This document shows, in pieces, positions 1 through 44,556 of a DNA stretch of 64,000 bases. Source of the stretch: Ricordea florida (lineage: Eukaryota; Cnidaria; Anthozoa; Corallimorpharia; Ricordeidae); contig OX453280.1 in the NCBI GenBank assembly GCA_949710005.1, positions 13,012,605 to 13,076,604 of the forward strand, written 5' to 3'. A program made the position numbers and the translations under genes. The notes under the pieces were generated by a model. That model searched no databases, had not been told where the DNA came from, and worked only from the letters and a program-made list of their open reading frames with translations. Every line of letters begins with the position of its first letter. Position 1 is the stretch's first letter.

Positions 1-581
1 TTCATCGGGGGATGACGGATGAAGAACCCGTAGGGTTCACTCGTGGCATCTTGAAAACAATCCATCACAAATCCAACACGTCCAGGGTAAGCTTGTTGTG
101 CCAAATTACGAACACCCACCGCATCTCTCGGGTTTTTAAACGCCACCACATAATGCGAATTTAATGAAATGGTACGTGCATACTTGCCTGGTGGAAATAG
201 ATTTTGCGTCAAGTAAATGCAAGTCACGTCATTGTGATGAGATCCTCTGGTAAAGAGATCCACCACGTGTTGATCTTCGCTGCAATCCCGCATTAAATGG
301 TCCAATTAAAAAATACCGGGTCTTTGATCTTGCCGAAATAGAGCCTGAATGTTAGCAGGAATCCCTTTGTGAAAATGAATCCCTTGCCTTTGCATGGTAT
401 GAAAACACGGTTGAGCTTCTCCGTAACAGTAAACAATGCATCTGGGAGCTCGATCAAACAACCGTTTGGCATGTTGTAATAGTTGTCTGGTGAAGGTTGT
501 TTTCCCACATTGACTGGGTCCCGCCACAATCATACTACACGGTGACTTGAATAAAGGTTCCTCGTACATGAACGCCGACAT
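1..581 (-). pseudogene. A32/FtsK-type genome packaging ATPase, partial and interrupted
   Basis: The ATPase of this class pumps viral DNA into the capsid. The reading frame starts at an ATG at 581 and soon shows a Walker A loop (GPSQCGKTT). An in-frame TAA at 306-308 falls where the Walker B strand should be, immediately before LDHLM. Beyond it the same frame stays open to the window edge and keeps family-like sequence, including a YLTQNLFPPGKY stretch and AFKNPRDAVGVRNL. The 3' end is outside the window. The gene follows the protease on the same strand, as in related elements. A second copy at 23186 begins the same way (DEPLFK then GPSQ) and also has a stop, there inside Walker A. Confidence 0.8.
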
Positions 582-1213
582 GGTTGGGACACTTTCCAAC
601 AGGGAAATGAACTGTCTTTCACAATTTCATCTTTTTTATTTTCTACAACGATTGTTACAGCATTGCTTTCTTGATACATTACATTGATTACAATCCTGAA
701 CGATGTCACGCATGGTCTGACGACGGCGACGACGACGACCAGGTACCAAGTGATGTTTGACAAACGCTTCCACGCTTCCACATGAGCATCGTTGGCTTGC
801 TTATTCTTGGGGGTGAACGATTGTTCGATGGCTTTCATACTCTTCCCTCTCGTTCGAAAATACAAATAATACAGACAATAATATCCACATGCAAAGGAGT
901 TGAGGGATTGTAGAGATGTCTTGTTACGTCCGGTTCTTTTCTTGCCTTGGCTCAAATACTTGGTAAAATGGGTAGAATAAAACGAGGGTGGAAATCCATA
1001 GCTATCAAAAAATTCACTCTTGGTCTTATCTGGAAAATACATGGCAATCCAATGTTCTCCCGGTTGACTGGCAGGATCCGTGCTGGCAATAAGAGAGGCA
1101 GGATACGTAGGTATTCGACGAGGCAGTCGGTTACTTGGAAACACGCCCAAAAATGTCGAAGCAATACATGGATCACTCATACTTAGTGTTCTCAACTTGT
1201 TGGTATACAACAT
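530..1213 (-). pseudogene. Adenain-like cysteine protease (virion maturation protease), frameshifted
   Basis: Adenain-type proteases cut virion precursor proteins during maturation. The frame starts at an ATG at 1213. It shows the family order of catalytic residues: His in EHWIAMYF, an acidic residue in FFDSYG, Gln in LQSLN and Cys in ACGYYCLYYL. An exact 8 bp tandem duplication at 766-781 shifts the frame near the C-terminus, so the last roughly 50 codons of the open frame (to 530) are not native. In the shifted frame a Cys-rich tail (CNQCNVSRKQCC) continues to about 636 and matches the tail of the copy at 22622-23144. The gene lies between capsid and ATPase on the same strand. The catalytic core looks intact and only the tail is displaced. 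Confidence 0.85.
766..781. repeat. 8 bp exact tandem duplication inside the protease gene
   Basis: The octamer GCTTCCAC (plus strand) occurs twice in a row. The second element copy has a single unit at the equivalent place, so this duplication is probably the lesion that shifts the protease frame. Confidence 0.8.
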
Positions 1214-1217
1214 GATT

Positions 1218-2611
1218 TAAGCCAGGTTGTAGGTCACGTTCTTGTCAGCATCAATTTCCATCACATCCACTTACTCTGCATAGACAATCATCGTCAGTAC
1301 TGTGTTGGTGGGATCTGAGAACAGCCCTTTTATGCTGACTTGGCCTTTGTATTCCGGGTGCATATGAACCGCTGCCCCGCTTCCATCAGGGGTTAAATCC
1401 CACATGAACAGAGCAAATCCGTCAAACCAATTGTTTCTGCTTATTTGTAGTCCAGGACCTCGGTGCATGTGACCGCTTCCCAACAGCAGTGAATTGTAAC
1501 CATTCACGTTCCCGTTGTCATCCAATTCAATGGCTGATGTTGGATATTCTTCTCCATTGACGAGCAGCTTCGGGGTCTTCAAGCCAAACAACTGAAAATT
1601 AAAAGGGGTTTGACCCATGTTTCCCACATAGGCATCTTTTCGCACCAAGCCAATCACAACACGTCTGGGTATTTTGCCCAAGAACAGATCGTTTCTCTGA
1701 AAGCTGGATTGTCCACTGGCAATGTTGTAGGCTTGCACATCCCCTCTTTCCAAATTGTACAGGGCAGGTCTGGGGAGGCTTCCTTTCACTCTTCCTGTCA
1801 TGATGTTGAGATGCTGTAGGCGCACAGAATCATTGATTTTCACATAAGGCACCACAAATTCACAGTCCAGGATTTGCAGTTTTTCGGCACCAGTCGTTGA
1901 CATGAGACAGAAGGCTTCATTGTGGATGTCAATGCGAATGTTCATGTTCACATCCCCCACCAGGTACTTGTCTGTGTGGAACAGAGCATGAGCAGGAGTC
2001 CCTTGCATTTGAACGATATTACTGCTATCAATGAACAGTTGTCTTTCCAGCAAGTTTGGAATACCAGCACCAGCAGTACCTCCTGTTGTTTCCGTCAAGT
2101 TGAATTTTCCTGATTGATCAGTATACCATAAGATACAAGTCAGGTACGATTGAGCACTGGCTGGGTCGTAACTCAACAGATTTTCAATGTACGCTTTGTA
2201 AGCATAAGTGTCATTTTGCTGAGTGACCAAGGTATTGTTGAGCTTGATGGACATCTGTTTGATGATGCTGTGCATGAAATTGTTGACCGGAATGCATTTC
2301 TTTTCAGCCAAATCATCGCCATTGGCTTTGGTGACTTTGAGCTTGACCTGTGAATAACACTTGGATAGATCAATGTAGTCATGGGTGGTTTCAATGTTGA
2401 ATTCAATGGGACTGCCACGTTGAATTCTTGATTCCGGGTGATACGATTGCCAACGTCCACTTAGTACACTTGTATCCGTGGGAGGTAATTTAAATAATTC
2501 CAAAGCCGTATTTCCACCATGCTCCGAGGCATAATGTTTGGGAGCTTGCTCCAATTCCATCATGATGTTATCCTTGTCGTTTCCTAGCTCCGAATGAGAG
2601 TGCTTCACCAC
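1218..2611 (-). pseudogene. Major capsid protein (double jelly-roll, hexon-like), with an in-frame stop near the C-terminus
   Basis: This is the largest structural protein, about 446 codons before the first stop, and its length and composition suit Maverick/adintovirus hexon-like capsid proteins. Recognisable stretches are ELFKLPPTDTSVLSGRW near the start and GFALFMWDLTPDGSG near the end. The open frame runs back to 2611 without an ATG at its edge. The first in-frame ATG pair is at about 2563, and a splice-acceptor-like TTTTCAG sits exactly at 2611-2617, so a spliced start is possible. A TAA at 1271-1273 ends the open frame. The same frame then continues for 17 codons to 1218 with residues (VDVMEIDA, KNVTY) that are conserved, without a stop, in the second copy near 22560-22619. 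The stop is therefore probably a lesion. Confidence 0.85.
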
Positions 2612-3518: not shown

Positions 3519-4124
3519 TTATTGTTCCGTTTTGTCCAACTTCACCTTATGCTGAGGTGAATACCAAGCGGTGGCATTCATTTGTCGTGCCAACATGAGA
3601 CGATCTTGAGTCAACACAGCTTTATCCCCTCTTTCACCTTGAATGTATTGGTAACTCTTGAAACTCAGTTGAGGTGTAAGAAATCCAAGCTCTATGGCTA
3701 GAGGAAGACTGAATCCCAGTTTTGCTTCCTTTTTCAATTCAATCGTTGTCACCTTTTCATTGTCCGCATTGTTCTCTATGACGATGTAATCAGCCAAATC
3801 TATACCCTGATGATCGGCGCGCATGGCAAGTTCATCGTGAATGGTCTGGAAAATGAGTCCACTGGTCGAGAGGTGTTTTGTTCTTGGTAGATGAAAGTGA
3901 CCAGAATAGACATGTCCATCAGGGTTTCCCATTTCCGCATAAGCCAGGTAAGCGCCTTCATCTTGATTATAGGCATTGGCATAAATGAGATTGACGAGAG
4001 CCACTTTCCAATATTGATTCATGTAAAGTCTCTCAGGCAGGTCTACGGTAAAATTGCCTGGTCTGTTGGTTTGACGTTTGGTATTGCTGGGTAGCGTCAT
4101 ATAAAAACGACCATCAGACGTCAT
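3519..4124 (-). CDS. LPSN-family virion-type protein, N-terminal part
   Basis: The ORF has 201 codons and starts MTSDGRFYMTLPSN. It contains the signature of the family repeated four times in a row here: a short N-terminus with F-x-LPSN, then F-x-V-x-LP, then a W-x-VAL-x-x-I-Y strand. It ends before the C-terminal domain, which follows as a separate ORF. Its ATG overlaps the stop of the upstream gene by the four bases ATGA (4121-4124). The family is common in metazoan Maverick elements as far as I recall, and a penton or minor capsid role is inferred from location between core and integrase genes; no direct functional evidence is visible. Confidence 0.65.
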   Translation of the reverse strand: MTSDGRFYMTLPSNTKRQTNRPGNFTVDLPERLYMNQYWKVALVNLIYANAYNQDEGAYLAYAEMGNPDGHVYSGHFHLPRTKHLSTSGLIFQTIHDELAMRADHQGIDLADYIVIENNADNEKVTTIELKKEAKLGFSLPLAIELGFLTPQLSFKSYQYIQGERGDKAVLTQDRLMLARQMNATAWYSPQHKVKLDKTEQ

Positions 4125-5056
4125 CGTTTTTTCCTGAAATGTAACGTTACTTCCACCACCCCATGTAAAAATGGGATTGGTTCCCCTGTATCACCTCTTA
4201 AAAGGATTTCAATGGTGTTGAACGATTTCAAACGTACATCATGATAGAAGAGATTGAAAAAGTTCTCGTGAATAATCTCTCCTGGGTTACCTCTGGGAGC
4301 CACTGCTCACAAAATGTTGGCACGCACATCACCAACCACCTGGGATGCCACTATATCCGAATAAATGTAGATGGTTTGAAAAGAAATGGCTGTTAGAAAC
4401 CAGTGAATCGGTTTATCCAGAGTCGTTGCCAACCAATAGGCATCAGTACTATGAGTAAAATCCCCACGATATTCATCAGCACCCAAACGTAAGAAAGTAT
4501 TAAGAGGATCAGATGCATCCAAACCACTCTGTCGAAAATAGCGTCTTCCATAAGGTTGATCCTCATACACTTCTGCAATTTCCAGTTTGTTGACGATCCA
4601 AGGATTGAGGGCCAGCGCCGACGCTCTCTGGATGGTAATGGTAGGATGATTATTCTCGTAGGTGAATTTGAATTCTTGATCCATCAATCGATCTCCAAAC
4701 GTAAATCTCAATCCTCCTTCCATCCCGCGAATCACATCTTCAGCGGTTCTGTAATCTCCTTCATGAATATGTAAAGGCACCCAGTACTCATCCTCATACT
4801 TTTTGATATCGTTTAATTTGTCGGGTCTTCTGGCACGACCAATTCTGGCAAAGAACAGACTCTCTGGTGTATAATGCTGGGATATATTTATCCATGTGTG
4901 CGGATAAATAATACTAGCCAACGCCACTTGCCATTCATCTCCATGAAGTTCATAGTTGTTGGGTAAGGCAATTTTAAAACTGGATCCGTTGTTGTTCGGA
5001 TAAATGTCAGTACTTGCGTTACTCGGAAGCAACAAGTAAAAATCGTCGCCATTCAT
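4121..5056 (-). pseudogene. LPSN-family virion-type protein with one in-frame stop
   Basis: The frame starts at 5056 with MNGDDFYLLLPSN and runs to a TGA at 4307-4309. The same frame continues without a shift to 4121, ending LHFRKKR like its neighbour. Aligned with the intact member at 5053-6066, the TGA replaces a residue in the conserved ANIL/APRG junction, where that member has Arg, consistent with decay of a CpG-containing codon. Start and stop overlap the neighbours by ATGA on both sides. Confidence 0.7.
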
Positions 5057-6066
5057 TCTCGTTTCTTACGAAAATGTAACGTGAGTGTCACAACACCTCC
5101 TTTGAATGAAATCGGTTCACCTGTGTCTCCTCTTAAAAGCACTTCAATGGTCTTGATACGATTGAGTCGTACAGGATTGTAAAAGAGGTTGGGAAAATTT
5201 TCATGAACAATCTCGTTCGGTTCTCCTCTTGGTGCAATCACACGAAGCACATTGGCTCGTACATCTCCCACGATCTGTGTTTCCACCACATCTGAATAAA
5301 TGTACATGGTTTGAAAACTGAGACCTCCAGTACTACTATCTTTTCCACCAATAAACCAATGCACTATGTCATTCAGGTTGTTTTGCACTCGGTACATCGC
5401 ATAGTCATCCTCATCAGGTATATCATCGGCAGTAAAACGGTGATCCCATCCAAAAAAGGCATAATTGGAATCATCGAACCGACCATTAGGGTTTGGAAAA
5501 TCGCCATCAAGGGTACCATAGATAGGAGATGTGTCAACATAACCAGGTTGTGTGAAATGTTCAAGTTCGAGAGCTTTGTACAGATACCTATTAAAGGCCA
5601 ATCCTGAAATCTTTTTTATCTTCAATTCTGTATGATCATCCACGTCTTTGATTTGCCATTCTTCATTGACCAGATCGTCTCCAAATTCTTGTCGTAAGGC
5701 GTGATCGACTCCTCTCACGACATCTCTCACTGTTTGGTAGTTACCTTCAGCCAAGTAGACTAGTACCCAACCATTGTAATATCCGGGTTTATCCTTGTAG
5801 TTTTCAGGTCGGCGATCCAGACTAAGTAAGGCCATAATTTTTCCCACATGATTGGGTTGAATCTTGCTCTTATCATCAGCGGGTGCAATGTTGACCCACG
5901 AATGAGGGTAAACGATACTGGCTAGAGCCACTTCCCATTCACCGTACAATTCAAGCGTGTTGGGTAGCGTCACTGTAAAACCGGTGGGACCATTGTGGGG
6001 AAACGTATGGGTACTGGCGTTACTTGGTAGATAAAGATAGAAATTGGACGGAGCCTTTTCAGTCAT
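5053..6066 (-). CDS. LPSN-family virion-type protein, full length
   Basis: This is an uninterrupted family member of about 337 codons. The open frame extends to 6114, but the ATG at 6066 is preferred because it places the FYLYLPSN motif at the usual distance from the start and overlaps the upstream stop by 8 bp (6059-6066). The order is the N-terminal LPSN and LPNTLELYGEWEVALASI strands, a variable acidic middle, then FQTMYIYSDVV, RANVLRV, GDTGEPI and the terminal LHFRKKRE. The repeated beta-strand-like motifs suggest a virion spike, penton or cement protein, which is inference. Confidence 0.72.
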   Translation of the reverse strand: MTEKAPSNFYLYLPSNASTHTFPHNGPTGFTVTLPNTLELYGEWEVALASIVYPHSWVNIAPADDKSKIQPNHVGKIMALLSLDRRPENYKDKPGYYNGWVLVYLAEGNYQTVRDVVRGVDHALRQEFGDDLVNEEWQIKDVDDHTELKIKKISGLAFNRYLYKALELEHFTQPGYVDTSPIYGTLDGDFPNPNGRFDDSNYAFFGWDHRFTADDIPDEDDYAMYRVQNNLNDIVHWFIGGKDSSTGGLSFQTMYIYSDVVETQIVGDVRANVLRVIAPRGEPNEIVHENFPNLFYNPVRLNRIKTIEVLLRGDTGEPISFKGGVVTLTLHFRKKRE

Positions 6067-7333
6067 GGTACCACGTGAATCTTGTTTCTGAAGTGAAGTG
6101 TTTCTCTGCATCAAGCTTTAAAGCAATTTCTATTTCGCTTAAACGTTGTTCATGAAGCTTGTGGTAATGAATGTTGGCAAATACTTTGCGTTCCTGTTCT
6201 CCTTCTTGAAGATTTTCATGGGGAGTGATCCATTGCAACACTCGTGATTTTCCACGCCCATCAAACCACGGTTCAATATTCAAATTGGATTCAACAAAAC
6301 AGGACTCCGCGGGTCGATAAGCCACAGGGATATATTTCCTTACCCCGTGGGGTGGATCGATATAAAACGTCCAGGCTTCTTCTTGAGGTAAACAAACAAA
6401 CATGAGATGGGGAAGAGACGAATCGATTCGAAACCGTCCATCTCTGTAAGGCGGTCTAATGTTGTCATTGTTATCCACAAATCCCAGGATGCGTGCAAAC
6501 GGTAACGAAATCCTGAAGGTAGCTCCTGGTTGAAGATCAAAACGAAATTTTTCTTGCTCGTATCTCATAGCAATACCCACGAAGAAATGAGTCTTGGCCA
6601 GGTTCCTCAAAATAATACGAAAACGATGAGAATAGTAATCATCCACATCAATAAAATGGGACAACCAATTTTGGGTCCAGGTGTTGTTAAAGCAAAAGTC
6701 CACATCATTCTCAGTCGCTTCAATAAAAGGGCGAAGATTCACACCCATCGTTTCATCATCATCATTGGTGAGCTCAAAACAATGTTCCCCTTCAGGTATC
6801 TTGAATGTATCCGTTTGGTTGGCGAAAGGTGGTACCACCGTATAATCTTGGGTTTGTAACCCATCTGAAGAGTCGGGATGTCTCAAAGCCACAAATCCCA
6901 ATAGTCTGGCCATGGGTAATGGAAATCTAAGAGCTCGATCCGCGGGAATGTTCCATCGAACCTTTCTGGTGGTTGGTTGATAATTGGATTCGATTTGAAT
7001 CTCAGCTAAATCATGCACCAGGGCATCCGTGACATGTTCAAACACACTGTAGTAACCAGGATAGGGAGCAGGAGGAAGTGTTTTGGTGACCCAAGGTTTC
7101 CCTTCTCCAGTACTGTACTGCCATCTCACATCATGTGTCTCATCCAGGGATACTTTTCTGGGTTGATACCATGTTTTAAAAAACACAATCTCAGTGAGTC
7201 CAACTTCCCAGTCTCCTAGCAATAAAATCTCTTGAGGTAACTCGATGTTGTAATGATGAGATCTGTTATCCAAAAAACGATCATTGAGGGTGTTGCTTGG
7301 AAAAATCAAGTAGAAATCCTCTTGGGCCCACAT
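6059..7333 (-). CDS. Long, diverged LPSN-family protein
   Basis: At 424 codons this is the longest and most diverged member of the tandem family. It starts MWAQEDFYLIFPSN, followed by the expected IELPQEILLLGDWEVGLTEI strand. A second half contains FRISLPFARILGFVDN and a C-terminal helix-like segment rich in Glu and His. It is uninterrupted. It heads the LPSN cluster, immediately downstream of the integrase on the same strand. Confidence 0.7.
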   Translation of the reverse strand: MWAQEDFYLIFPSNTLNDRFLDNRSHHYNIELPQEILLLGDWEVGLTEIVFFKTWYQPRKVSLDETHDVRWQYSTGEGKPWVTKTLPPAPYPGYYSVFEHVTDALVHDLAEIQIESNYQPTTRKVRWNIPADRALRFPLPMARLLGFVALRHPDSSDGLQTQDYTVVPPFANQTDTFKIPEGEHCFELTNDDDETMGVNLRPFIEATENDVDFCFNNTWTQNWLSHFIDVDDYYSHRFRIILRNLAKTHFFVGIAMRYEQEKFRFDLQPGATFRISLPFARILGFVDNNDNIRPPYRDGRFRIDSSLPHLMFVCLPQEEAWTFYIDPPHGVRKYIPVAYRPAESCFVESNLNIEPWFDGRGKSRVLQWITPHENLQEGEQERKVFANIHYHKLHEQRLSEIEIALKLDAEKHFTSETRFTWYHD

Positions 7334-8652: not shown

Positions 8653-8985
8653 TTATGGCTTCCTCATGTAATTATACAAATACATCATCACCAACCATGG
8701 TAAACTGGGTAGTGTCATATCTTGTTTCGTCAACCACTTCTGTATGACATGTTTTTGTCCCACCGATAAGGTCAGAAAGTCAAGCATCCGCATAAACGCT
8801 GCTACATGGCCCCAACATACGGGTGGTTGCCTTTCTTCCACTCGTCTCCAACATTTCTGTAGATCCCACACTGTACATGGGAGACAACAGGCAGGTATGT
8901 TGAACACATCGGTTTGGATTGAACGGCTCAACTCTGGATCCATTCTTGCAATAGCATGAATCATCGATAGTTTTAGCCTCTTCAT
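8653..8985 (-). CDS. Possible Bcl-2-like protein
   Basis: This 110-codon ORF starts with an ATG and is alpha-helical in composition. A CWGHVAAFMRML segment resembles the BH1 signature of Bcl-2 proteins (W-G-R-V-x-A-F), and it is followed about 30 residues later by a Trp-containing hydrophobic segment (LPWLVMMYLYNYM) that could be BH2 or the tail helix. Bcl-2 homologues have been reported in adintoviruses, which makes this plausible by context. The match is weak and no BH3 groove motif is clear. Otherwise it is an unrecognised small gene just upstream of the integrase. Confidence 0.35.
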   Translation of the reverse strand: MKRLKLSMIHAIARMDPELSRSIQTDVFNIPACCLPCTVWDLQKCWRRVEERQPPVCWGHVAAFMRMLDFLTLSVGQKHVIQKWLTKQDMTLPSLPWLVMMYLYNYMRKP

Positions 8986-8989
8986 CTTG

Positions 8990-9192
8990 AACTACAAAGA
9001 AAACAGAAGATGAGTCTGCACGTTATGTAGCTTGCGGCAACAGACGATTTAAAGATTGAACCTCACAGTCCTGGAATGAGAACTACAAAGAAAACAGAAG
9101 ATGAGTCTCCACCCTATGTCGCTTGCAAGCCTCACAATTCTGGAAGCGTTTGGCCTACAGGAGAAGATGACTCTCCACTTTATGTAGCGAGC
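8990..9192 (+). repeat. Imperfect tandem repeat, period about 86-90 bp
   Basis: Two long units (8990-9036 and 9079-9126) share GAACTACAAAGAAAACAG and the following ATGAGTCT...TATGT-GCTTGC. A shorter third unit (about 9161-9188) repeats GAAGATGACTCTCCA...TATGTAGC. The units encode related peptides (TEDESxxYVAC, GEDDSPLYVAS) in two plus-strand frames, suggesting a repeated coding motif. Confidence 0.6.
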
Positions 9193-9198
9193 CGATGA
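9076..9198 (+). CDS. Small ORF with repeated ED(E/D)SP-YVA motif
   Basis: A 40-codon ORF begins MRTTKKTEDESPPYVAC and ends SPLYVASR. It contains two copies of the E-D-x-S-P-x-Y-V-A motif. A third copy precedes it in another frame (TEDESARYVACGN, 8995-9055). It sits on the plus strand just upstream of the histone-tail ORF and could be part of the same transcript. No family is recognised. Confidence 0.35.
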   Translation: MRTTKKTEDESPPYVACKPHNSGSVWPTGEDDSPLYVASR

Positions 9199-9315
9199 AA
9201 AGAATATGTTGGTTGAGTGTTCTTGTCACTGGTGGAGTCAAGAAACCTCATCGCTACAGGTCCGGAACAGTATGGACTCCATGAAGAAGAGAGAGAAAAA
9301 ACGTTCCATGAAGAT

Positions 9316-9526
9316 ATGGCTCGTACGAAGCAAACAGCACGTAAATATGGAAACGGGAATCCGAAGACAGGACGAACTACAAGAGGGCGGAACCGAAGAA
9401 TGCTATCAGGAATCACCATCACAGCATCTTTTGAACATTTTCGAATTGACTAGGCTACCAGGGTTGAGGCCAATGGAGAATTTATGTAAGAGATTTCTAA
9501 ATCCATTGGAAAAGATTCACCAATGA
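9316..9526 (+). pseudogene. Histone H3-tail-like ORF, probably with a frameshift
   Basis: From an ATG at 9316 the first ten residues are MARTKQTARK, identical to the N-terminal tail of histone H3 including K4 and K9. A basic stretch follows (KTGRTTRGRNRR), and the frame stops at 9451-9453. Next to it, in the frame ending at 9526, YQESPSQHLL, then LTRLP and MENLCKRF loosely resemble the H3 alpha-N/alpha-1 region (YQ-x-S...LL...LP...F). The natural switch would be near 9380-9400. The open frame also extends upstream to 9217, but the ATG at 9316 is the meaningful start. It lies on the plus strand between two minus-strand genes. Either a diverged H3 gene or a tail mimic is possible. The tail identity is certain and the fold assignment is weak. 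Confidence 0.6.
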
Positions 9527-9651
9527 AGAACAACAGAAAAAACGTGAATATCAAAGTACCTTTTTTTTCTTCCACCAAAAGACTTCCACATAAAAAAATG
9601 TCGTCACTGCACTTCAATATCCGTACGGTAGTGTATCATAATCTTGTTTGA

Positions 9652-12600
9652 TCACACGTTGTTATAAACCAGTTTATATTTCTTGTCTTGGGATTGCGTC
9701 ACCAATTGTTTGTTCTTTGTATCACGTACAATCTTATGAGGGTTATGAACAGCGACAGGTTCACAGTCATTGGCTCGTACCATGTCCACCATGGTATGAA
9801 AGTTAACTTTCTCTGTCGTCCGGACATTCAACGTAAATCCCCGTACTTTACATACAATTTTTCCCTTGTATGTCTTGTAGGCATAATTCTTGGGGCCTGC
9901 CGAAACAAAGGTGATGATATGATCATCACTGTCCAACTCGTTGGTGAGTTCCCCCAAATAATCGCCCAATGAGGGTTCCCACTGTCCTTCTTCCGATATG
10001 TAAACAAGGCTGTCTGTGTCGTAATAACACACTCTTCGATCCAGGTTCTCCATAACACGGTACAATTTAATTCTCGCTTGAGCTGTGGTGAAGGCAGCCA
10101 AAACAACATTGGTCCTGTCGGAAGCTTCCACAAAGTCATTCTCTTGGACATAACACACTTCCACCATGTCATCAGAGACAAGATGGACATCTTTTATGTT
10201 GACACTGGCGTTGGTAAACAGTTCAAAATAACGTTTCGTATCATTCACCACTTCCAACTTGGGTCTGTTTGGACGCTGTCCCAATTTTCCTCACATGTTG
10301 TTTAGTATTTGTTTCCACACACTTCTGGCGCCTGCGTTATACTGGATATTCTCCTTCTCCAAAAGAATCCCTTCATGTTGGTGGTATTCTTGAATGTATC
10401 TGTCTTTGTCTTGGTCGGTCTTACACCAAGCAGGCCAACCCGAGACTTCCTGTTTCTTCTTCAAAAACATATCGATATAGTCTTTAAACAAAGTTTGACT
10501 TTTTTGATCAAAATGCCATACTTCATGTATTTTCACCACCCGGTATCCCATCTCACGTGCCAAGTCCAGTTCTAGACTCACCCATGTGCCAGTCAAGGTT
10601 CTTTCTTCATCCGTGTGTTGTTGCACTTGAATGGTAATACGGGATGATATAAACCGCGGGGGGCAAGCACATCACATTTGATGACACCAAAGTAATCTCC
10701 CACCTGGGCAGGATTTAAATTGTCCGTAAATATTCTGGGATGTCCCACAGGATACACGCCGTTCTTATTGATATCTGGGTATAGACTTGTAAAGTCCACA
10801 TACTTGATCTTCTTTCCTTCCACCAACAATTTCGTGGCATTGGTACGTCCCCCATAAAAGGCATCACGCTGGTTCAGGGGAGAAACAAAATCCAATGCAT
10901 CCACAAATGCTTTCACTTCTTGGTTCTCTTTTAGGAGCTATCGCCACTGACATTCCCACATTTCCACCACGTCAATGCCTTCTTTCTTCAAATAGTTGGT
11001 TCTTTCCAAGGTATGTTGATACAATTCATGCATCGAACAATTGCTGATGCGATTCATGGTGGACCCGGGAAAACACTTGATACAGCCATGAAAAAAGCAA
11101 CCATGAAACTCATAGGCTGTATTGGTAGCTTCACAATATCCATCCAACAAATAGGGTCCCACACGCTTTTCTCCTTCACTTCTGCCATGACGAATCACTG
11201 CATTGTTCTCATGGGCCACATGAGCCAGCCACTGATAGGCGCAATGCGATTGATTGGCTTTTTTCTGTAGCCTAGAAGAGGGATAATGGCAATGGTTTTC
11301 TCCTTCAAAAACATGGTACGAAAAATTAAATTGCATAAAGATGCAATGGTCATACTTTCTTTGAAAGGGTGAATATGACATAACCCTTTCACCGTTTCTA
11401 TGAATTGACAGCAACATCGCCGCAAAATGTCCACATCAGATCGACAATAAGCCACCAGTTCTTCTTGCATATTAAACACCACCTTCTTTGTCTGTTGTTC
11501 TTGGTACCAGGTCAGGAACGCATCACGAGCTTCTGGTTTCATACCGTCAGGGTCATAGTATTCAACATCTGGTATGGGTCCCACATAATGTTGGTTTTCT
11601 TCTGTATTGAAGAAATGGGGGAAATAACCTTTCTTGAGTTCTTTCATGCCAAATGTTTTGGGTAACTTTGACAGCGGCATAGGAAAAAAATTTAAACTGT
11701 CAATAAAACGCACATCCACATCTGGTACTCGCATCTCCATGATCTTGGCGCCATTCATGATGAGGGTTGGTTTCACATTGTTCTTGTACAAATAATCAAA
11801 AATAAAATAAGAATCAGAACCCTTAAAGTTATGGGCTATGCAGGTTGCTCCTGGCATCTGGTCAAACAGCCAGGAGCAAAATGCCTCGCACGTTTTAAAC
11901 ATCCACTCCTTCCCGTGTTGATCTTGCACCACCACCAGATTAGGTACATGGATTCCAGTGTTTTGAGTACATTCAAAATCAAAAAATAAATAAGTGTCAT
12001 CTTGTTCCTCATCATCAGCAGCATCTCTCTTTCTTTTCTTGCCTTGTTTGGGTACTTGCATGAAACACTGATGATTTTTGTCGACAAACTTGTCACATAT
12101 ACGACACATCACTTCTCCACATTTGTGTTCATTGACATTGCGTCGAGTCCGGTCCAGCATTTTACCGCAATCTTTACACTTGAGATACTGTTTGCAAACA
12201 GAGATTCCACCCTGAGGCCCCATTCGACGATGATTCTCAAAACATCCAGGTCCCTGAAATGATCTTCGGCAATAAGCGCAATAGATCCATGAGGATATAT
12301 CACCACGACATCCTTCTTGAAAACAAGACAAACATTTCTTCTTACATCGATGATGCCTTCCCTCTTCTGTGTTATATCCCTTTTCACATTCCAAACAATA
12401 ATAATTGCGTCCCATGAATCCAGGCATGGAGGTGATGAAATCATAATGACCATGATGTAAATATAAATAAATCACTTTCTCCTGGGTGGTCCCTTTGAAA
12501 ATAATACTGTTAAAATGTTCCGCACTGACAACCACCAGTTGATAGTGAGGCAATACGGCTTGAAACTTCTTCGCCTCTTCAATACCACATGGTTGTAGGG

Positions 12601-13237
12601 GGACTCCTGCTTTATGGTGTAATGTCAAAGCTCTTGTTCTTTGTACGGGGCGACCATATTTTATGGAATTATACTTTGGGTCCTTCTCCAGTTTGGCCAG
12701 ACCAACCACAATGGCTCTGGCCATACATAGTTCGTCCTGGTTCTTTATTCTAATAAGACATCGTTTGTCCCTCAAACGCTTGCTCATATTGATGACTTTC
12801 TTTCTTCCACTCCCCGCGGGAAGAGAAACGTGAACTAAATTCACATCAAATCTTTGATTCACATACAAATCCTCATGGGACTGTAACACTCGTTCCACTT
12901 CAAACATAATTCTTTGAGATGTGAGGTCTTCAACAGGCATGAATGGTAGACTGATGGGTGAAGATAGTTCGCGAGTTTGCATGACAAAACGAATCTGATC
13001 TCGCTCATTCATTCCACGGGTCATATCTGCCATGGCTCTTTCCAACACATGGTTCAAATTGGATGCTCCTTCTTGAATAGTCTTGGCTTGGGGAATATCA
13101 ATGGTTAAATGATAATCAATTCCCGAGGTTTTGAATCTGGGAATGTGACGTCGATTCTGTTCTTTCAGATCATAACTGGGTAGTTGTTGTTGTCGTTGCT
13201 GCTCTTGTGGCTGTCTTCTCCCACGACGTCCTCCCAT
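9652..13237 (-). pseudogene. polB: Protein-primed family B DNA polymerase, in several fragments
   Basis: The start is the ATG at 13237 (MGGRRGRRQ). About 1195 codons suit a Maverick polymerase. In order: Cys/His clusters (CLECEKGY, HRCKKKCLSC, CRICDKF), exonuclease motifs I (FFDFEC), II (AHNFKGSDSYF) and III (YCRSDVDIL), palm motif A (DFTSLYP), the motif B region, and motif C (YYDTDSL). Four lesions break it: a frame change in the A-run near 11261-11275, an in-frame TAG at 10938-10940, a frame change near 10600-10626, and an in-frame TGA at 10291-10293 inside motif B. It would have replicated the element by protein priming. As assembled it cannot encode a full polymerase. Confidence 0.9.
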
Positions 13238-13272: not shown

Positions 13273-13875
13273 TCAAAAATCGAACATGTTGACATCAAGA
13301 GGAACAGGCTGAACAATTTGGTAAAACATGTCAACTTGCCCCTCTTCCTGTTGTTGTTGTTGTTGCTGTTGTTCAAGGATGGTTACGGCCTGTAATAACT
13401 CCTCATCACTATTCATTGGTTCAGCATCACCTTCTTGTGCCGTTTCATCATCACTTTCTTGTTCCATTTCATTCATGGCTTGTAATAAATCATGATCACT
13501 CACTGCGGGCGTAACCATCTCTCCGTCAATCATCAAACCCAACAAAATGCTTTGTTTATCAGGACGAGAAAATTGATGGAGGACCCATTTTGAATCAAAA
13601 CAAGTCATTTGTTCGGCGGTGTAACCCATCATCGTGCAAGATTGCACCCAAGGGCGAATGATATGAGATGGTTTGACACATGTCAACGCTCTTTCCATAA
13701 ACCTTGAAATCTTTGCTTCATCATCCGCCTCGCAACTATGATCTTTTTCGTATGGAGTTCTATGAGAACATCCATAACAGGCCTCATTCGCCAAAGACTT
13801 GATTCGTTTCCAAAGGCATTCACAATAGACGCGCCAAAACTGAGCTTCTACATTCTCTTTGATTTCCTCATCCAT
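13273..13875 (-). CDS. Unrecognised acidic protein with a Cys/His cluster, upstream of polymerase
   Basis: This intact 200-codon ORF starts MDEEIKENVEAQFWRVY. It has a possible zinc-binding cluster (CYGCSHRTPYEKDHSC, residues about 33-48), a Trp-containing middle, an acidic Ser/Glu/Asp-rich stretch, and a run of eight to nine Gln near residue 170. Its C-terminal MFDF stop lies 36 bp before the polymerase ATG. A TATA box lies 60 bp upstream of its ATG. It is probably the first gene of the leftward transcription unit. A regulatory or polymerase-associated role is only a guess. Confidence 0.6.
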   Translation of the reverse strand: MDEEIKENVEAQFWRVYCECLWKRIKSLANEACYGCSHRTPYEKDHSCEADDEAKISRFMERALTCVKPSHIIRPWVQSCTMMGYTAEQMTCFDSKWVLHQFSRPDKQSILLGLMIDGEMVTPAVSDHDLLQAMNEMEQESDDETAQEGDAEPMNSDEELLQAVTILEQQQQQQQQEEGQVDMFYQIVQPVPLDVNMFDF

Positions 13876-22214: not shown

Positions 22215-22240
22215 AGGGAACAGCCCAGGCAAAACAATTC

Positions 22241-22309
22241 ATGCGTCAATTAGGAATGATGCGACGGCAAACGCGAAGTCGCCCTCGGAGAATAGACATT
22301 TTCGGATAA
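22241..22309 (+). CDS. Conserved micro-ORF, element 2 copy (22 aa)
   Basis: It starts MRQLGMMRRQTRSRPRR and ends DIFG, matching the 21-residue ORF at 2623-2688. It overlaps the last codons of the core gene remnant (EQPRQNN...) exactly as in element 1. Confidence 0.5.
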   Translation: MRQLGMMRRQTRSRPRRIDIFG

Positions 22310-22323
22310 ATTGACTTCTAGCC

Positions 22324-22619
22324 ATGAAAACCTATTATTTGAGACCAGGAAACGACGACGACAATATCACGAAATTAGAGCAAAGTCCTAAACACTATGC
22401 CTCAGGGTTATACCTATGGTTATGCCCTGTTCATGTGGGACTTAACTCCAGACGGAAGCGGTGCTGCGTATCACATGCACCCAGAGTACAGAGGTCAAGT
22501 CACCATTAAAGGTGTTCACGGCACCAACAGACACAGTTCTCACGTTGGTCGTCTACGGAGAGTATGTGGACGTCATGGAAATCGATGCTAACAAGAACGT
22601 GACTTATGACCTGGCTTGA
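22324..22619 (+). pseudogene. Major capsid protein, internally deleted
   Basis: The first 25 or so codons (to KLEQSPKHYAS) match the start of the capsid gene at 1218-2611. A deletion of about 1.1 kb then joins them to the C-terminal region (YALFMWDLTPDGSG). A frame change near 22515 follows, and in the shifted frame the C-terminus continues to the TGA at 22617-22619 through VDVMEIDA and KNVTYDLA. This copy has no stop where element 1 has its TAA. Confidence 0.75.
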
Positions 22620-22621
22620 GC

Positions 22622-23144
22622 ATGTTAAGCACGCGCGATCCGTACGTTGCTTCCACGTTTCTGGGTGTGTTTCCAAGTGAACGATTACCCAAACAAGTAC
22701 GCAAGTATCCCGCCTCTCTCATTGCCAATACAGATCCTGCCAGTAAACCAGAACAGCATTGGATTGTCATGTATTTCCCAGAGAAGACAAAAAACGAATT
22801 TTTGGATAGCTACGGACTTCCGCCCGCATTTACAAGAATACTTTTACAAAGTACCTGAAAGGGAAAAGGATGTTACGCAACACGAAAACACTACAAGACT
22901 TCAACTCTTCCGTGTGTGGATATTATGGTCTTTTTTATTTGTATTTTCGAACGCGAGCTTATAAGCCATCGAGTGATGTTTCACCCCGAGCAATAAACAA
23001 GCGAATGACAAACACGTCGAAGCATTTGTCAAACATTATTTGTCACGTCGTCGAACCAAACCCACCATGTGCAACGCTTATGATTGTAATCAATGCAATG
23101 TGTCAAGAAAACAATGTTGTTCTCATAGAAATAAAAAAAGTTGA
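22622..23144 (+). pseudogene. Adenain-like protease, second copy, frameshifted
   Basis: It starts MLSTRDPYVASTFLGVFPS and keeps the catalytic His region (EQHWIVMYF) and acidic residue (FLDSYG). The frame changes near 22845, after which SSVCGYYGLFYLYF shows the Cys region. Part of the intervening sequence is altered. The tail (CNQCNVSRKQCC) matches the shifted-frame tail of element 1 and ends at 23142-23144. Confidence 0.75.
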
Positions 23145-23185
23145 AGGTTAAAACACGATTCATTTGTATGTTGGAAAGTGCAACG

Positions 23186-23275
23186 ATGTCATCTTCTTAT
23201 TACGATGAACCCTTGTTTAAAACGCCATGCAATATGATCATTACGGGACCCAGTCAGTGAGGAAAAACAACGAAG
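23186..23275 (+). pseudogene. Packaging ATPase, N-terminal remnant
   Basis: An ATG at 23186 opens MSSSYYDEPLFKTPCNMI, then GPSQ and a TGA at 23258-23260 inside the Walker A loop, followed by GKTT. Homology then stops, so the rest of the gene is deleted. Compare 1-581. Confidence 0.75.
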
Positions 23276-28390: not shown

Positions 28391-28395
<5 letters not shown>

Positions 28396-28471
28396 AAAAC
28401 GTTAGATAAAGCAAGGACGGACAACTTCTGACGATAAAAAAGTTAAAAAGTTAAAAATTTAATAGAAAAAA

Positions 28472-28496
28472 CGTTTCGGTCTTAGACCTTCGTCAG
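28472..28496 (-). ncRNA. Hammerhead-ribozyme-like core, PLE1 left arm
   Basis: On the minus strand CTGACGA, a GGTC/GACC hairpin and GAAA follow one another. This is the arrangement of a hammerhead core with a short stem II. The first stem II pair next to CTGACGA would be A-C, so the fit is imperfect. Penelope-like elements are known to carry hammerheads. Confidence 0.4.
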
Positions 28497-29080
28497 TTAC
28501 AGGAGAAAAAGGACGGAAACTAAGTTTAAATACGGTTACAGTGTGGGAGATTACATACCGAAATGAAAAATACTATCGTGCTATTAATACATCGTGATTA
28601 ATACAATACAGGGAAAAAAATGCAAAACGAGAAATACAATGCTGTACTATAAATTACGTCATACAGGGTGATAATTAATAGACCAAACGAAAAAGATACA
28701 ATGCTGTGCATAAATTACATTATAAAGCGGGATAATTGCAGAACTAGGTTAAATTCAACCTAAAAACTAAAATAGTTAAAATAGATAAAGCGGACTCTTG
28801 CAATGCGGTAAATATTACGGGAAAACTAGTTTACAAAGATATGCAGAAGAAACCTACGTTTACGCTGGACAGGGTTAATAACAAAATCCCAAATCGAGGC
28901 CTTTGGAGCATTAAAGGGTTGACAAACAACAAAATCCCTGGAGGGGCCCTTAAACAATAAGCTGTAATAAGATCCCAGGCAGGGCCTTTGAGCATACCTA
29001 ACACCCAAAGAGCTGGCAAAATCCAAGGAAGGGCTTTTGGACTGCTTTATGGCGCAAACGCATATTTACACAAGAGAAAG

Positions 29081-30436
29081 TTAATTATAACAAATTCTGT
29101 TTTTGGAGTGAAATTCTTTTCTTTTATTTAAGCCATGGGGAGCCATAGAAAACAGTTGAGCACTCCAATAAGCCTCTTTCGTAATTAAAAACCTATCGAT
29201 CTCGTCTAAGTCATTAGGGGCCTGCACCTGATCAATGCATTGGAATTCAAAATCATCCAAGGAGTGTGGAATTTTATTGAAATGTACTGCTACCTCACAA
29301 GTGGTTTTGTTTGTGAGCATAGCAGACTTGTGGTTACGAAACCTAACCCGAAAATCGGTGGTAGTTGATCCTACGTACTGTAAACGACATTTCTTGCAGG
29401 AAACTAAATAGATCACGTTTTTAGAATCACAAGAAAGCCTTGAATGAATGGTGTATTTTCTGCACGTTCTAAAACTTAGAAATGATTTAGATTCAACAAA
29501 GAAATTTCGACAGAGATCGCATCTATTTCTTTCACATTTAAAGCAGCCATTGTTTGGCTGAATTGTTTGTCCCTCATCGGCGGTTTTAAAACGAGATGGT
29601 GCTAATAATTCTTTCAGGTTTTTTGTTCTACGAAAAGATGGTATGATAGAGCCTTGAGGGAAAAGTTCTTTCAATTTAGGGTTGGATTGCAAAATCAACA
29701 AATGCTTTCTAATTATGCTACTCACATTAGGCAAGTTAGGATTAAATGTGAGAACAAATGGAAATAATTTCCTCGATTGTTTTCCGCGTTGCCGTAGTAA
29801 ATCAATCCTAGAAATGGTGGAGGCTTTGGAGAATTGATCGTCAACTAATTTTGGGGGATAACCCTGATTAACAAGATAACCTTTGTACTCAACTGTTCTC
29901 TCGGCAAGGAAAGTTTCTTCAGAGCAATTTCTCTTCAATCTAGTCGCTACTCCAAAAGGAATAGCCTTGAAGACATGCTTGGGATGGCAGCTAGAGGGTG
30001 GAAGGTATAAATGGCTATCTGTAGGTTTAGAATAAACATCAGTTCTAATAAACCCTTCCACAAGATGTAAAGTAAGATCAAGTACGTGAAGCTCACGTTC
30101 AGAAAAAACTAACTCGAATTTAATAGTAGGGTATAGAGAATTGATATAATCAGTAAATTGATGTAAGGCAGGAAGGCCTTGCTGCCAAAGATCAAAGACA
30201 TCGTCACGATAACGCCACCACAAGGATGGCTTTATCGGACCGGAAAACTTAGCTTTAAGATCAATTTCACCCATGGCTAGATCGGCATAACTACATGCAT
30301 TTTTTGGACCCATGGCCGTACCATGAATCTGAAGAAAGAAATTCTCTTTAAAAACAGAATGGTTGCTTTTCAAACAGATTTTTACGGCTTCTAGTATGCA
30401 AGATGTGGACGGAATTTTGTTTTCCCTAGCATTCAA
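29081..30436 (-). CDS. Penelope-like reverse transcriptase with GIY-YIG domain, 5'-truncated
   Basis: The frame runs from the palindrome centre to 29081, about 451 codons. It begins inside the RT domain (KNACSYADLAMGEID), contains the catalytic YRDD box (WWRYRDDVFDLW), a thumb-like region, then a CxxC-rich linker (CFKCERNRCDLC) and a GIY-YIG-type endonuclease (VIYLVSCKKCRLQYVGST, with R and H in VRFRNHKSAM). No stops interrupt it. The N-terminal RT fingers are missing, so the copy is truncated. Confidence 0.85.
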   Translation of the reverse strand: MNARENKIPSTSCILEAVKICLKSNHSVFKENFFLQIHGTAMGPKNACSYADLAMGEIDLKAKFSGPIKPSLWWRYRDDVFDLWQQGLPALHQFTDYINSLYPTIKFELVFSERELHVLDLTLHLVEGFIRTDVYSKPTDSHLYLPPSSCHPKHVFKAIPFGVATRLKRNCSEETFLAERTVEYKGYLVNQGYPPKLVDDQFSKASTISRIDLLRQRGKQSRKLFPFVLTFNPNLPNVSSIIRKHLLILQSNPKLKELFPQGSIIPSFRRTKNLKELLAPSRFKTADEGQTIQPNNGCFKCERNRCDLCRNFFVESKSFLSFRTCRKYTIHSRLSCDSKNVIYLVSCKKCRLQYVGSTTTDFRVRFRNHKSAMLTNKTTCEVAVHFNKIPHSLDDFEFQCIDQVQAPNDLDEIDRFLITKEAYWSAQLFSMAPHGLNKRKEFHSKNRICYN

Positions 30437-30653: not shown

Positions 30654-31668
30654 TGAGCTTCACGTACTTGATCTTACTTTACATCTTGTGGAAGGGTTTA
30701 TTAGAACTGATGTTTATTCTAAACCTACAGATAGCCATTTATACCTTCCACCCTCTAGCTGCCATCCCAAGCATGTCTTCAAGGCTATTCCTTTTGGAGT
30801 AGCGACTAGATTGAAGAGAAATTGCTCTGAAGAAACTTTCCTTGCCGAGAGAACAGTTGAGTACAAAGGTTATCTTGTTAATCAGGGTTATCCCCCAAAA
30901 TTAGTTGACGATCAATTCTCCAAAGCCTCCACCATTTCTAGGATTGATTTACTACGGCAACGCGGAAAACAATCGAGGAAATTATTTCCATTTGTTCTCA
31001 CATTTAATCCTAACTTGCCTAATGTGAGTAGCATAATTAGAAAGCATTTGTTGATTTTGCAATCCAACCCTAAATTGAAAGAACTTTTCCCTCAAGGCTC
31101 TATCATACCATCTTTTCGTAGAACAAAAAACCTGAAAGAATTATTAGCACCATCTCGTTTTAAAACCGCCGATGAGGGACAAACAATTCAGCCAAACAAT
31201 GGCTGCTTTAAATGTGAAAGAAATAGATGCGATCTCTGTCGAAATTTCTTTGTTGAATCTAAATCATTTCTAAGTTTTAGAACGTGCAGAAAATACACCA
31301 TTCATTCAAGGCTTTCTTGTGATTCTAAAAACGTGATCTATTTAGTTTCCTGCAAGAAATGTCGTTTACAGTACGTAGGATCAACTACCACCGATTTTCG
31401 GGTTAGGTTTCGTAACCACAAGTCTGCTATGCTCACAAACAAAACCACTTGTGAGGTAGCAGTACATTTCAATAAAATTCCACACTCCTTGGATGATTTT
31501 GAATTCCAATGCATTGATCAGGTGCAGGCCCCTAATGACTTAGACGAGATCGATAGGTTTTTAATTACGAAAGAGGCTTATTGGAGTGCTCAACTGTTTT
31601 CTATGGCTCCCCATGGCTTAAATAAAAGAAAAGAATTTCACTCCAAAAACAGAATTTGTTATAATTAA
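30654..31668 (+). CDS. Penelope-like RT/GIY-YIG ORF, right arm, 5' part in the gap
   Basis: The protein from ELHVLDLTLHLVEG to HSKNRICYN equals the C-terminal 338 residues of the ORF at 29081-30436. The RT catalytic box falls in the gap. Confidence 0.8.
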
Positions 31669-32252
31669 CTTTCTCTTGTGTAAATATGCGTTTGCGCCAT
31701 AAAGCAGTCCAAAAGCCCTTCCTTGGATTTTGCCAGCTCTTTGGGTGTTAGGTATGCTCAAAGGCCCTGCCTGGGATCTTATTACAGCTTATTGTTTAAG
31801 GGCCCCTCCAGGGATTTTGTTGTTTGTCAACCCTTTAATGCTCCAAAGGCCTCGATTTGGGATTTTGTTATTAACCCTGTCCAGCGTAAACGTAGGTTTC
31901 TTCTGCATATCTTTGTAAACTAGTTTTCCCGTAATATTTACCGCATTGCAAGAGTCCGCTTTATCTATTTTAACTATTTTAGTTTTTAGGTTGAATTTAA
32001 CCTAGTTCTGCAATTATCCCGCTTTATAATGTAATTTATGCACAGCATTGTATCTTTTTCGTTTGGTCTATTAATTATCACCCTGTATGACGTAATTTAT
32101 AGTACAGCATTGTATTTCTCGTTTTGCATTTTTTTCCCTGTATTGTATTAATCACGATGTATTAATAGCACGATAGTATTTTTCATTTCGGTATGTAATC
32201 TCCCACACTGTAACCGTATTTAAACTTAGTTTCCGTCCTTTTTCTCCTGTAA

Positions 32253-32277
32253 CTGACGAAGGTCTAAGACCGAAACG
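32253..32277 (+). ncRNA. Hammerhead-ribozyme-like core, PLE1 right arm
   Basis: Mirror copy of the motif at 28472-28496: CTGACGA, GGTC/GACC hairpin, GAAAC. Confidence 0.4.
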
Positions 32278-32453
32278 TTTTTTCTATTAAATTTTTAACT
32301 TTTTAACTTTTTTATCGTCAGAAGTTGTCCGTCCTTGCTTTATCTAACGTTTTTAAATTCATTTTTGTGGTGAGGCTTGGACTGTGAATCTTCATTGATC
32401 CTCCTGACGCAGTGGCATTCTTTGTTGGCTTGAGGCATTTTATAACCGTTTTT

Positions 32454-39320: not shown

Positions 39321-39490
39321 AACAGGGATGCCACACGCCAGAAAGATCCAAAAGGATTCGTAGTCCAAACCTCGAGTAATGAAATTTGTAGGCAATTGTG
39401 GAAAACGAGGACGGACAACTTCGAGCGAAAAAAAAAAATATATATATACAGTAAGAAATCTAAAAAAAGTTTTAAAATTTAATAAAAATA

Positions 39491-39517
39491 GACGTTTCGG
39501 TCAATGACCTTCATCAG
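39491..39517 (-). ncRNA. Hammerhead-ribozyme-like core, PLE2 left arm
   Basis: On the minus strand CTGATGA, GGTC-ATT-GACC hairpin, GAAAC. It has the same layout as PLE1 but the canonical CTGATGA. Confidence 0.45.
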
Positions 39518-40072
39518 TTGCAGTGCAAGTGAATAAGAAATTACAATGTCCTTAAATAGGTTTACAGTATAAAAGATGACATAATATAACAAAGATGATT
39601 ACATAACAGGGCGTGGTAACACATGAAAATGAAAAAATTAACCAATGATAAACAATCGGTGATTACTAAGCGAGAAACTATGACAATGCGATACAAAACT
39701 CAAGAAACGCAAACCAAATATGAATAAATAATCGGATATAATACAAATAAAATTAATGTTAAAAAACTATAACATGATTCGTCAAGTCAGCCAAAAGTGT
39801 GAAGGGACCCGCGTGTAAAATATTCACAGTATTCATAAAAGGCCATCCTAGGAAAAACTTGTAATAAAAACCCCAAACAAAGCCCTTGAAGCTATGCCGC
39901 GGCAAGGCACAACAGGCGCCCTGAACAGGGCCCTTAAACAACAATAATGTAATAAATTCCCCGATGGGGGCCCTTGAGAAAACCTTGCACTAACAAAGCT
40001 AACAAGATCCAAGGTCAGGGCCTTTGAACACCTGAACTAAGATAACCGCCAAATTAGCAAGTTATTTTTACG

Positions 40073-41614: not shown

Positions 41615-41747
41615 GTAAAATTCACTGAAGGCTGAAAGATTTTCTATAGCCGTACCACAACACGATGTGATAAGCCTGAGTGGGTTCCCTGCTTTGTGGG
41701 TTTTAATATTACCGAAGGCGACCCCTGGTTTGGCTTTTTTGTTAATT

Positions 41748-41830
41748 ATCCAATTAGCTAATTGGATAACACATCAACATTTAACATCTAATTGGATAAC
41801 ACATCAACATAACACACATTGGATAACATA
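41748..41830. repeat. Short repeats at the centre of the PLE2 inverted pair
   Basis: The spacer contains TAATTGGATAACACATCAAC twice and a partial third unit. It separates the two arms and is unrelated to the RT. Confidence 0.65.
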
Positions 41831-44108: not shown

Positions 44109-44556
44109 TATATATAAATATATATATATACATATATAAATACTCTCGGCTCGACTTACTCGAGCTTGCGAGCCACGTGGTCTGACCGGAACCGACACGA
44201 TTAGTAACCTCGCTTCGCGAGGAATAATGTACGCCAGAAAAAGAAAATCGCTTGGAAAATGGAGGACTTCTCAAGTGACAACCAACGCAGCGCGGGTCGC
44301 CGTAAGGAATTTTTTGTTGTAATTACTGCCGTACGTCTCGTTTTCTCGCTGACGGAAAAAAAATATGTTTAGTTCTAGTGGCGACATTTTTTCAAATGGA
44401 GTTGCAAATTCTTTCTGTATTTGAAAGCATTCTGCAAAAAATATAATTCAATTTTGGTTCTCAAGTGAACAAGTGACATCAAATTTGGTTACGCAAAATT
44501 GAATTTGCATTTGTAAACAAATCCTTTCTCGTTAGTTTTTATCGATAAACTCCGGG

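Follow-up and report, generated by a model that had tools for sequence, protein, structure and literature searches.

A multicopy family of Maverick/adintovirus-like elements carries, in the gap between two of its genes, DNA that derives almost beyond doubt from histone H3. In the copy analysed here, an open reading frame (ORF) in that gap opens with the exact H3 N-terminal tail, MARTKQTARK (10/10 residues), behind an ATG on the plus strand, as the sequence-only reading had noticed. Our preferred account, to which we give somewhat better than even chances, is that an H3 N-terminus was captured without the histone fold and has been kept as a tail mimic. The window, that is, the whole 64-kb stretch of DNA analysed (C9:13012605-13076604 of a 537.8-Mb assembly of 48 contigs, which was also the genome searched), holds the following features of the element and of its gap.

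306..581, minus strand: P-loop ATPase fragment, an ORF of 91 aa with weak AAA and P-loop matches, all below cut-offs
530..1213, minus strand: adenovirus-type cysteine protease (PF00770, 2.2e-5, above cut-off)
1271..2563, minus strand: capsid-like protein of the element, with no Pfam match and with 45 homologues that reach 96% identity
7446..8492, minus strand: retroviral-type integrase (PF00665, 1.2e-14)
8653..8985, minus strand: orf110, an ORF of 110 aa conserved in relatives, left border of the gap
8989..9192, plus strand: three 47-nt repeats in the orf110-polB gap, without H3 signal
9206..9526, plus strand, frame 2: 106-codon ORF of the ORF list, holding the family motif
9216..9272, plus strand, frame 3: second H3 piece (H3 29-47), 43 bp 5' of the tail
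9316..9345, plus strand: exact H3 tail MARTKQTARK, by translation and comparison with H3
9316..9453, plus strand, frame 1: 45-codon ORF opening with the H3 tail (ATG 9316, stop codon 9451-9453)
9407..9457, plus strand, frame 2: family motif QESPSQHLLNIFELTRL, standing where subfamily vi (below) has the H3 alphaN helix (RYQKSTELL)
9652..13237, minus strand: DNA polymerase B (polB), right border of the gap (PF03175, 5.8e-23 for 11195-13237)

The viral-type polB, the retroviral-type integrase and the adenovirus-type cysteine protease belong to the general gene set of Maverick/Polinton elements and adintoviruses, and they bear out the earlier proposal that the tail lies inside an element of this kind. 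The ORF at 1271..2563 is called capsid-like on our assumption that it corresponds to the capsid proteins of Mavericks; a few of its homologues, from arthropods and a mollusc, are labelled 'F54H12.2-like'. Stops and frame changes interrupt the window's polB, which marks this copy as a decayed insertion, a worn member of a multicopy family; the window apparently starts inside the element or close to its edge. Also on the minus strand, a 200-aa ORF adjoining polB (13273-13875) has a match to the telomere protein TERB2 that falls below cut-off (PF15101, 1.7e-5), and four adjacent, paralogue-like ORFs without Pfam match (3519-7333) have in common an F(Y)x(L)xLPSN-like stretch near their start. An inverted, diverged (~70%) partial second copy of a similar element lies at 22218-23271 and matches window positions 496-1415 and 2526-2711. 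The right half of the window is rich in interspersed repeats, with a pair of 100% identical 1.7-kb inverted arms (28391-30095 with 30654-32358) and a 4.7-kb near-perfect palindrome (39389-44110, 97.6%). Rfam gave no match at E up to 1 in window positions 1-30000.

From its ATG, frame 1 reads MARTKQTARKYGNGNPKTGRTTRGRNRRMLSGITITASFEHFRID and then stops; the sequence-only reading was right about the start of this ORF, but had carried it to 9526, which is where the frame-2 ORF ends. The same reading had missed the second H3 piece. This reads SVLVTGGVKKPHRYRSGTV, which includes VTGGVKKPHRYRSGTV and is identical to H3 29-47 at 15 of 19 residues (H3 numbering here counts the Met); it is the top H3 tblastn match of the whole window (E 2.4e-5), and the ORF containing it has matches among H3 chains of known structure (best E 3.6e-5). 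Standing 5' of the tail and in another frame, it inverts the order of H3. A frameshift-tolerant alignment of positions 8986-9651 to H3 scores 91, and none of 200 dinucleotide shuffles exceeds 42. Besides the two pieces, there is scant H3 signal in the window locus. In the same alignment, the score was equalled by 117 of 300 shuffles downstream of the tail and by 266 of 300 for 8986-9215; for 9346-9540 alone and for the stretch 3' of the 29-47 piece, 9 of 300 shuffles did so in each case. In a codon-distance test against H3, the observed value was reached by 400 of 400 shuffles 3' of the tail, 372 for 8986-9215, 273 for 9346-9540 and 66 for the stretch 3' of the 29-47 piece. Three other candidates were dropped: the 47-nt repeats as further degenerate tails, on the shuffle tests; a frame-2 likeness to H2B (2/2000 shuffles), taken as chance because it shares DNA with the exact H3 tail and was one of 16 comparisons; and minus-strand coding of the conserved pieces, whose fit was judged by hand to be poorer.

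The tail is far from absent in related elements. With up to 3 mismatches, its 26-nt sequence occurs at 53 places in the genome (reversed-pattern control, 0), which comprise eight host H3 genes with a 136-aa reading and 45 tails at 44 non-H3 loci; 35 of these element tails are exact MARTKQTARK, and the other ten have replacements or a stop. A degenerate MARTKQTARK pattern matches at least 85 places: 38 carry one tail sequence in two C9 clusters, where the one read (L098) is a 136-aa H3; 11 are other host H3 genes, all of 136 aa; and 36 belong to the 45 element tails (the 35 exact ones plus one with an R-to-S change), no additional exact tail appearing among the matches listed. The clusters, at 8.44-8.58 Mb (28 places) and 16.89-16.93 Mb (10 places) and often with a spacing of ~5.2 kb, are presumably tandem histone arrays. 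The tail and 48-62 pieces of the elements are closest to dispersed H3 genes (L023, L024, L036, L095 and others); for the 29-47 piece, the nearest gene is mostly L098 of the clusters. An integrase search of the genome gave 117 matches. Subfamily vi aside, 55 integrase loci reach 76% identity or more (split matches of a locus were merged by hand), and 40 of them have a tail within 3.5 kb. Of the 21 stretches examined, 18 contain pieces of host-H3 DNA with E below 1e-5, and every such match is on the plus strand. The three stretches without an H3 match lie by more distant integrases (L102 and L103, 69-71%; L104, 55% group); that of L104 extends to polB, and those of L102 and L103 have no orf110 or polB match and maybe do not reach the gap.

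Beyond this genome, searches of the viral contig set with integrase, polB, capsid and a capsid alignment gave no relatives, and the H3 and MDSMKK patterns had no match there; MDSMKK had none in the genome contig set either, and the tail ORF had no match in the protein set searched. A relative's protein, P0046, is an out-of-frame reading of a homologous stretch, where the tail frame permits MARTKQ(R/G)xRKS. It was rejected as a real protein, as its alignment to the window passes through all three frames, with indels, and its predicted fold is uninformative (pLDDT 40), and an estimate of codon constraint from P0046 and the window alone was dropped because back-translation masks first positions.

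Within the family, the tail occupies a recurrent place. The order integrase, orf110, tail, polB, with the tail on the strand opposite to orf110 and polB, is found in seven of nine 7-kb contexts (L060-L062, L064-L067), so that the tail does recur in related elements of the same genome between integrase and polB, the place where the sequence-only reading had advised looking in other anthozoans; L063 lacks integrase and orf110 matches, and L068 lacks polB matches. In L061, the tail ATG is 30 bp from the divergent orf110 start, and the tail ORF ends at about the end of the convergent polB. Sequences following the tail were sorted by hand into five classes: class i is as in the window, class ii continues with SSSGG...QESPSQHMLNIFELTGL (14 copies), class iii with SFVWKQESV and class v with SSSKKTIQK, and class iv has a one-base shift after K9 (3 copies). 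At one locus, L013, there are two tails at a distance of 142 bp. The 29-47 piece stands 5' of 26 of the 34 tails examined (25 of 33 loci), in many class i, iii and v copies but in none of the four class ii copies examined; the distance from its GG codon to the tail ATG is mostly 58 or 85 bp and it is mostly out of the tail frame. The tail gap of L066 contains, at 2728-2865, an inverted fragment of polB (residues 159-204 of the N-part), and the L027 gap looks similar by eye; the gap thus acquires fragments of the element's own genes besides host H3.

Subfamily ii offers the clearest coding arrangement. In 14 of 14 copies, an AUG-initiated ORF runs in frame and uninterrupted from the tail to QESPSQHMLNIFELTGL, and the offsets between the two (63, 72 or 87 nt) are all multiples of 3. 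These ORFs have 57 to 133 codons (57-66 in 13 copies) and consist of the H3 tail, a short Gly/Glu-rich linker, the motif QESPSQHMLNIFELTGL and a Lys-rich stretch; among copies of the family at large, the C-terminal end of the tail ORF differs.

The codon pattern of the tail is of the coding type, which was the outcome of the check on selection suggested beforehand. Diversity at first, second and third codon positions is 0.013/0.039/0.262 over 45 copies (0.026/0.075/0.247 over 23 unique sequences), and it jumps to 0.34/0.57/0.48 in codons 11-12 (34 copies). Tail variants present in at least two copies are synonymous in eight cases and not in two, and the ratio for singletons is 2:8 (Fisher p 0.023, on small numbers), where random single changes would give 21:69; the rule of up to 3 mismatches gives no advantage to silent sites. 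Shared variants that are mostly silent, together with singletons that are not, form the pattern expected of purifying selection before insertion and neutral decay after it. Positions 1 and 2 show 0/20 differences in every pair of seven element variants, all preselected as exact MARTKQTARK, so that the counts of shared and singleton variants are the figures free of bias; for polB and integrase, the corresponding divergence between the window and subfamily ii is 0.06-0.13.

Silent divergence from the window tells a similar story. The number of differing third positions in the tail (out of 10) and the third-position divergence in the C-part and N-part of polB are, respectively, 0, 0.05 and 0.08 for L066 (class i); 3, 0.31 and 0.20 for class ii; 3, 0.04 (78 codons) and 0.10 for class iii; 3, 0.24 and 0.25 for L025; 2, 0.20 and 0.23 for L012; 4 (by hand), 0.31 and 0.26 for class iv; and, for L013, 1 (L013b) or 3 (L013a), 0.17 and 0.20. 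Tail silent divergence is roughly of the size seen in the polB C-part, with a looser fit to the N-part and with class iii out of line. On the grounds of codon-position diversity, of shared and singleton variants and of this polB-like silent divergence, the MARTKQTARK of tail-bearing subfamilies was probably inherited with the element and constrained at the amino-acid level, and we regard past protein-level selection on the tail as likely. On the other hand, diversity over the three codon positions is distributed alike in the eight host H3 genes (0/0/0.289), and the tails, which differ from the nearest host H3 at 1-3 third positions and from each other at 1-5, are no closer to one another than to host genes; hence, repeated copying of host H3 might look like selection.

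The family motif, QESPSQHLLNIFELTGL, was located by fuzzy matching for 42 of the 45 tails (the L013 motif counted twice), and in its own frame it has a codon-position diversity of 0.116/0.024/0.278 over the 42 copies. It is in the tail frame in 19 of them (all 14 of class ii plus L012, L013a, L016, L025 and L031), of which L013a and L031 have a stop in between, leaving 17 of 42 in frame and uninterrupted. Class i copies, L016 excepted, have a tail-motif offset of 91 or 94 nt (+1), 91 nt in the window, which puts tail and motif in different frames; there the motif belongs to the frame-2 ORF, which in many copies starts at MDSMK, 5' of the tail ATG. The 23 out-of-frame copies have a motif diversity of 0.083/0.010/0.26. 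Expression of both tail and motif in class i is possible through splicing, frameshifting or separate ORFs. In the window, the frame-2 ORF contains CYQESPSQHLLNIFELTRLP and MENLCKRF, and the likeness of this neighbouring frame to the start of the H3 fold, remarked on in the sequence-only reading, withstood comparison: ESPSQHLL stands where subfamily vi has the exact H3 KSTELL. Reading the motif instead as H3 alpha2 (QEASEAYLVGLFEDTNL) was matched by 13 of 2000 shuffles for L046, 137 for L012 and 610 for L025, with a weak second domain in phmmer, and it was dropped because subfamily vi has the alphaN sequence RRYQKSTELL joined to NIFELT(G/E)LP.

These observations suggest a mechanism in which an ancestral element captured a host H3 N-terminus, and the tail was inherited with replicating elements under amino-acid constraint. 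Its ORF, if translated, would yield a soluble H3-tail mimic. Removal of the Met would display ARTKQTARK(S), with R2, K4 and K9, as well as S10 in subfamily ii, to the host proteins that read, write or erase H3 marks; these include PHD, WD40, chromodomain, LSD1-type and K9-methyltransferase proteins. Bound by the mimic, they might be diverted from silencing the element's DNA or else recruited, to the benefit of the element, and the family motif may act as a binding or dimerising helix. As a function of the predicted product, tail mimicry seems to us an even proposition. The account is the simplest to cover the patterns of both tail and motif together with the in-frame ORF in class ii. Several facts count against it: the tail is off the motif frame in the window and in subfamily i, many copies have an upstream ATG in frame 2, subfamily vi has no exact tail, ten of the 45 tails carry replacements or a stop, and the C-terminal end is variable. 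The sequence-only reading had offered a captured histone or a tail mimic; an H3-derived tail stands and a whole histone does not, and the window gene is degenerate, with open tail-to-motif ORFs in other copies.

An unlikely but substantial alternative is that the gap collects or refreshes short pieces of host H3 DNA, through recurrent capture or for a role of the nucleic acid as such, the ATG being incidental; the pieces could pair with host H3 mRNA, tag the element as self against small-RNA silencing or serve as recombination partners for H3 genes. All H3 pieces are H3-sense on the plus strand, so that polB, orf110 and integrase transcripts would carry them as antisense, and three different pieces (1-11, 29-47 and 47/48-62) are found at one spot. 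They are distributed by lineage, with 1-11 in subfamilies i-v and a near-identical 48-62 in subfamily vi. The latter, with 21 integrase matches at 84-88% identity, is absent from the tail list: the genome pattern search found no exact tail at its 21 loci, and NIFELT(G/E)LP stands ~0.6 kb from the integrase start in all 21 (lists compared by eye). In the three gaps of this subfamily that were read (L099-L101), ALREIRRYQKSTELL, identical to H3 48-62 at 15/15 residues, is fused to NIFELT(G/E)LPKE, so that the subfamily reads RRYQKSTELLNIFELT(G/E)LP; no in-frame ATG precedes the H3 48-62 ORF in these three copies, and L099 and L100 each have a second, out-of-frame copy of the H3 48-57 part at a distance of 62 bp. 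The L101 piece differs from host gene L095 at 1 of 42 bases (a first position that leaves the amino acid unchanged) and at no third position, and H3 48-61 of L099 and L100 at one third and one first position. As polB third positions differ by 0.46-0.49 between subfamily vi and the window, the vi piece was probably taken up or refreshed from the host recently. A recent fragment of a host H3 gene, which the sequence-only reading had named as the outcome that would speak against its own proposal, thus describes the 48-62 piece but not the tail, the silent divergence of which is about that of polB, as coding descent would give. The 29-47 piece, which follows immediately upon a stop codon in 13 of its 26 copies, the inverted polB fragments in the gap and the nearness of tails to host H3 genes all suit the same alternative, and H3 DNA or RNA as such is the best explanation for subfamily vi and for the 29-47 piece. 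Against it, the window's 29-47 piece does have an in-frame ATG (9195, giving a 29-codon ORF), the ACA at Thr6 of the tail is absent from the eight host H3 genes compared, and the family motif is no longer host H3, yet keeps a coding signature.

The tail-mimic and nucleic-acid accounts may both be true, in different lineages. A joint version, in which a single spot took host H3 DNA more than once and the piece was used as a tail-mimic peptide where it has an ATG, or as antisense or self-tag RNA where it has none, appears to us rather improbable. The same grade of doubt attaches to the notion of a plain relic, the crumbling and now functionless remains of a captured H3 gene. The window copy is broken, as are most copies of subfamily i, the H3 pieces keep neither the order nor the frame of H3, singletons have a neutral look, and the window data on their own, with nothing aligning to H3 3' of the tail, favour such a reading; it was revised because the genome search found 45 tails at 44 non-H3 loci. 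A relic also sits badly with the sharp edge in the window, where ten exact codons adjoin unalignable ones, with the mostly silent shared variants, and with the intact subfamily ii ORFs, whose linkers change in multiples of 3. That the locus is a full viral H3, a single diverged gene with one frame change whose product is packaged or incorporated into nucleosomes, is very improbable: although tail, 29-47 and alphaN pieces all occur across the family, they are out of order, neither Pfam nor the frameshift-tolerant alignment 3' of the tail recovers a histone fold, the C-terminal part is family-specific, nearly all subfamily ii ORFs are of only 57-66 codons, and the predicted fold of P0046 adds nothing. 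Coincidence, or a single host H3 fragment confined to the window copy, is negligible as an explanation given the 44 loci, the empty control and the significant second H3 piece, and the earlier judgement that chance was very unlikely holds.

An exact ten-residue H3 N-terminus that recurs, with a coding-type codon pattern, in a Maverick-like family would allow a test of whether Maverick/adintovirus elements act on host chromatin, and the many copies, in varied states of decay within one genome, make selection and the exchange of H3 between host and element directly measurable. If the gap has indeed taken up H3 repeatedly, a mobile element would be sampling one host gene again and again to deal with host chromatin. 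No article linking 'histone H3' with 'adintovirus' was found in the open-licence literature, and the titles and opening abstract lines of the matches listed for 'ARTKQTARK' with mimic and virus mention no such viral protein.

In its polB, rve integrase, adenovirus-type protease and putative capsid-like protein, the element resembles Mavericks/Polintons and adintoviruses such as the Stylophora coral adintovirus (PMC11071308), to which the H3 locus is an addition, the word 'histone' being absent from the main text of that paper. H3-like sequence has precedents among DNA viruses of aquatic animals: the Manila clam xenomavirus has a single viral H3 gene (PMC9145170), and xeno-class adomaviruses have 'Histoid' genes (PMC11071296), one of which shares a sequence with adintovirus-like virion genes and so stands beside capsid genes of the present lineage. 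In the xenomavirus H3 the histone fold is retained and the tail has diverged strongly; the present family has an exact tail, and no histone fold was found in it. Likewise, the bracovirus histone H4, a captured host histone turned on host chromatin, has the fold and an extended tail (PMC9145170), as opposed to the H3 tail and alphaN pieces of this family. Short viral mimics of the H3 tail are described in influenza H3N2 NS1 (ARSK), SARS-CoV-2 ORF8 (ARKS) and adenovirus protein VII (AKKRS) (PMC10208167), in which, as here, viral sequence imitates a modified part of the H3 N-terminus. Those mimics span four or five residues of unrelated proteins; the sequence described here comprises ten exact residues at the N-terminus of an ORF, derives from H3 DNA and belongs to a family of mobile elements.
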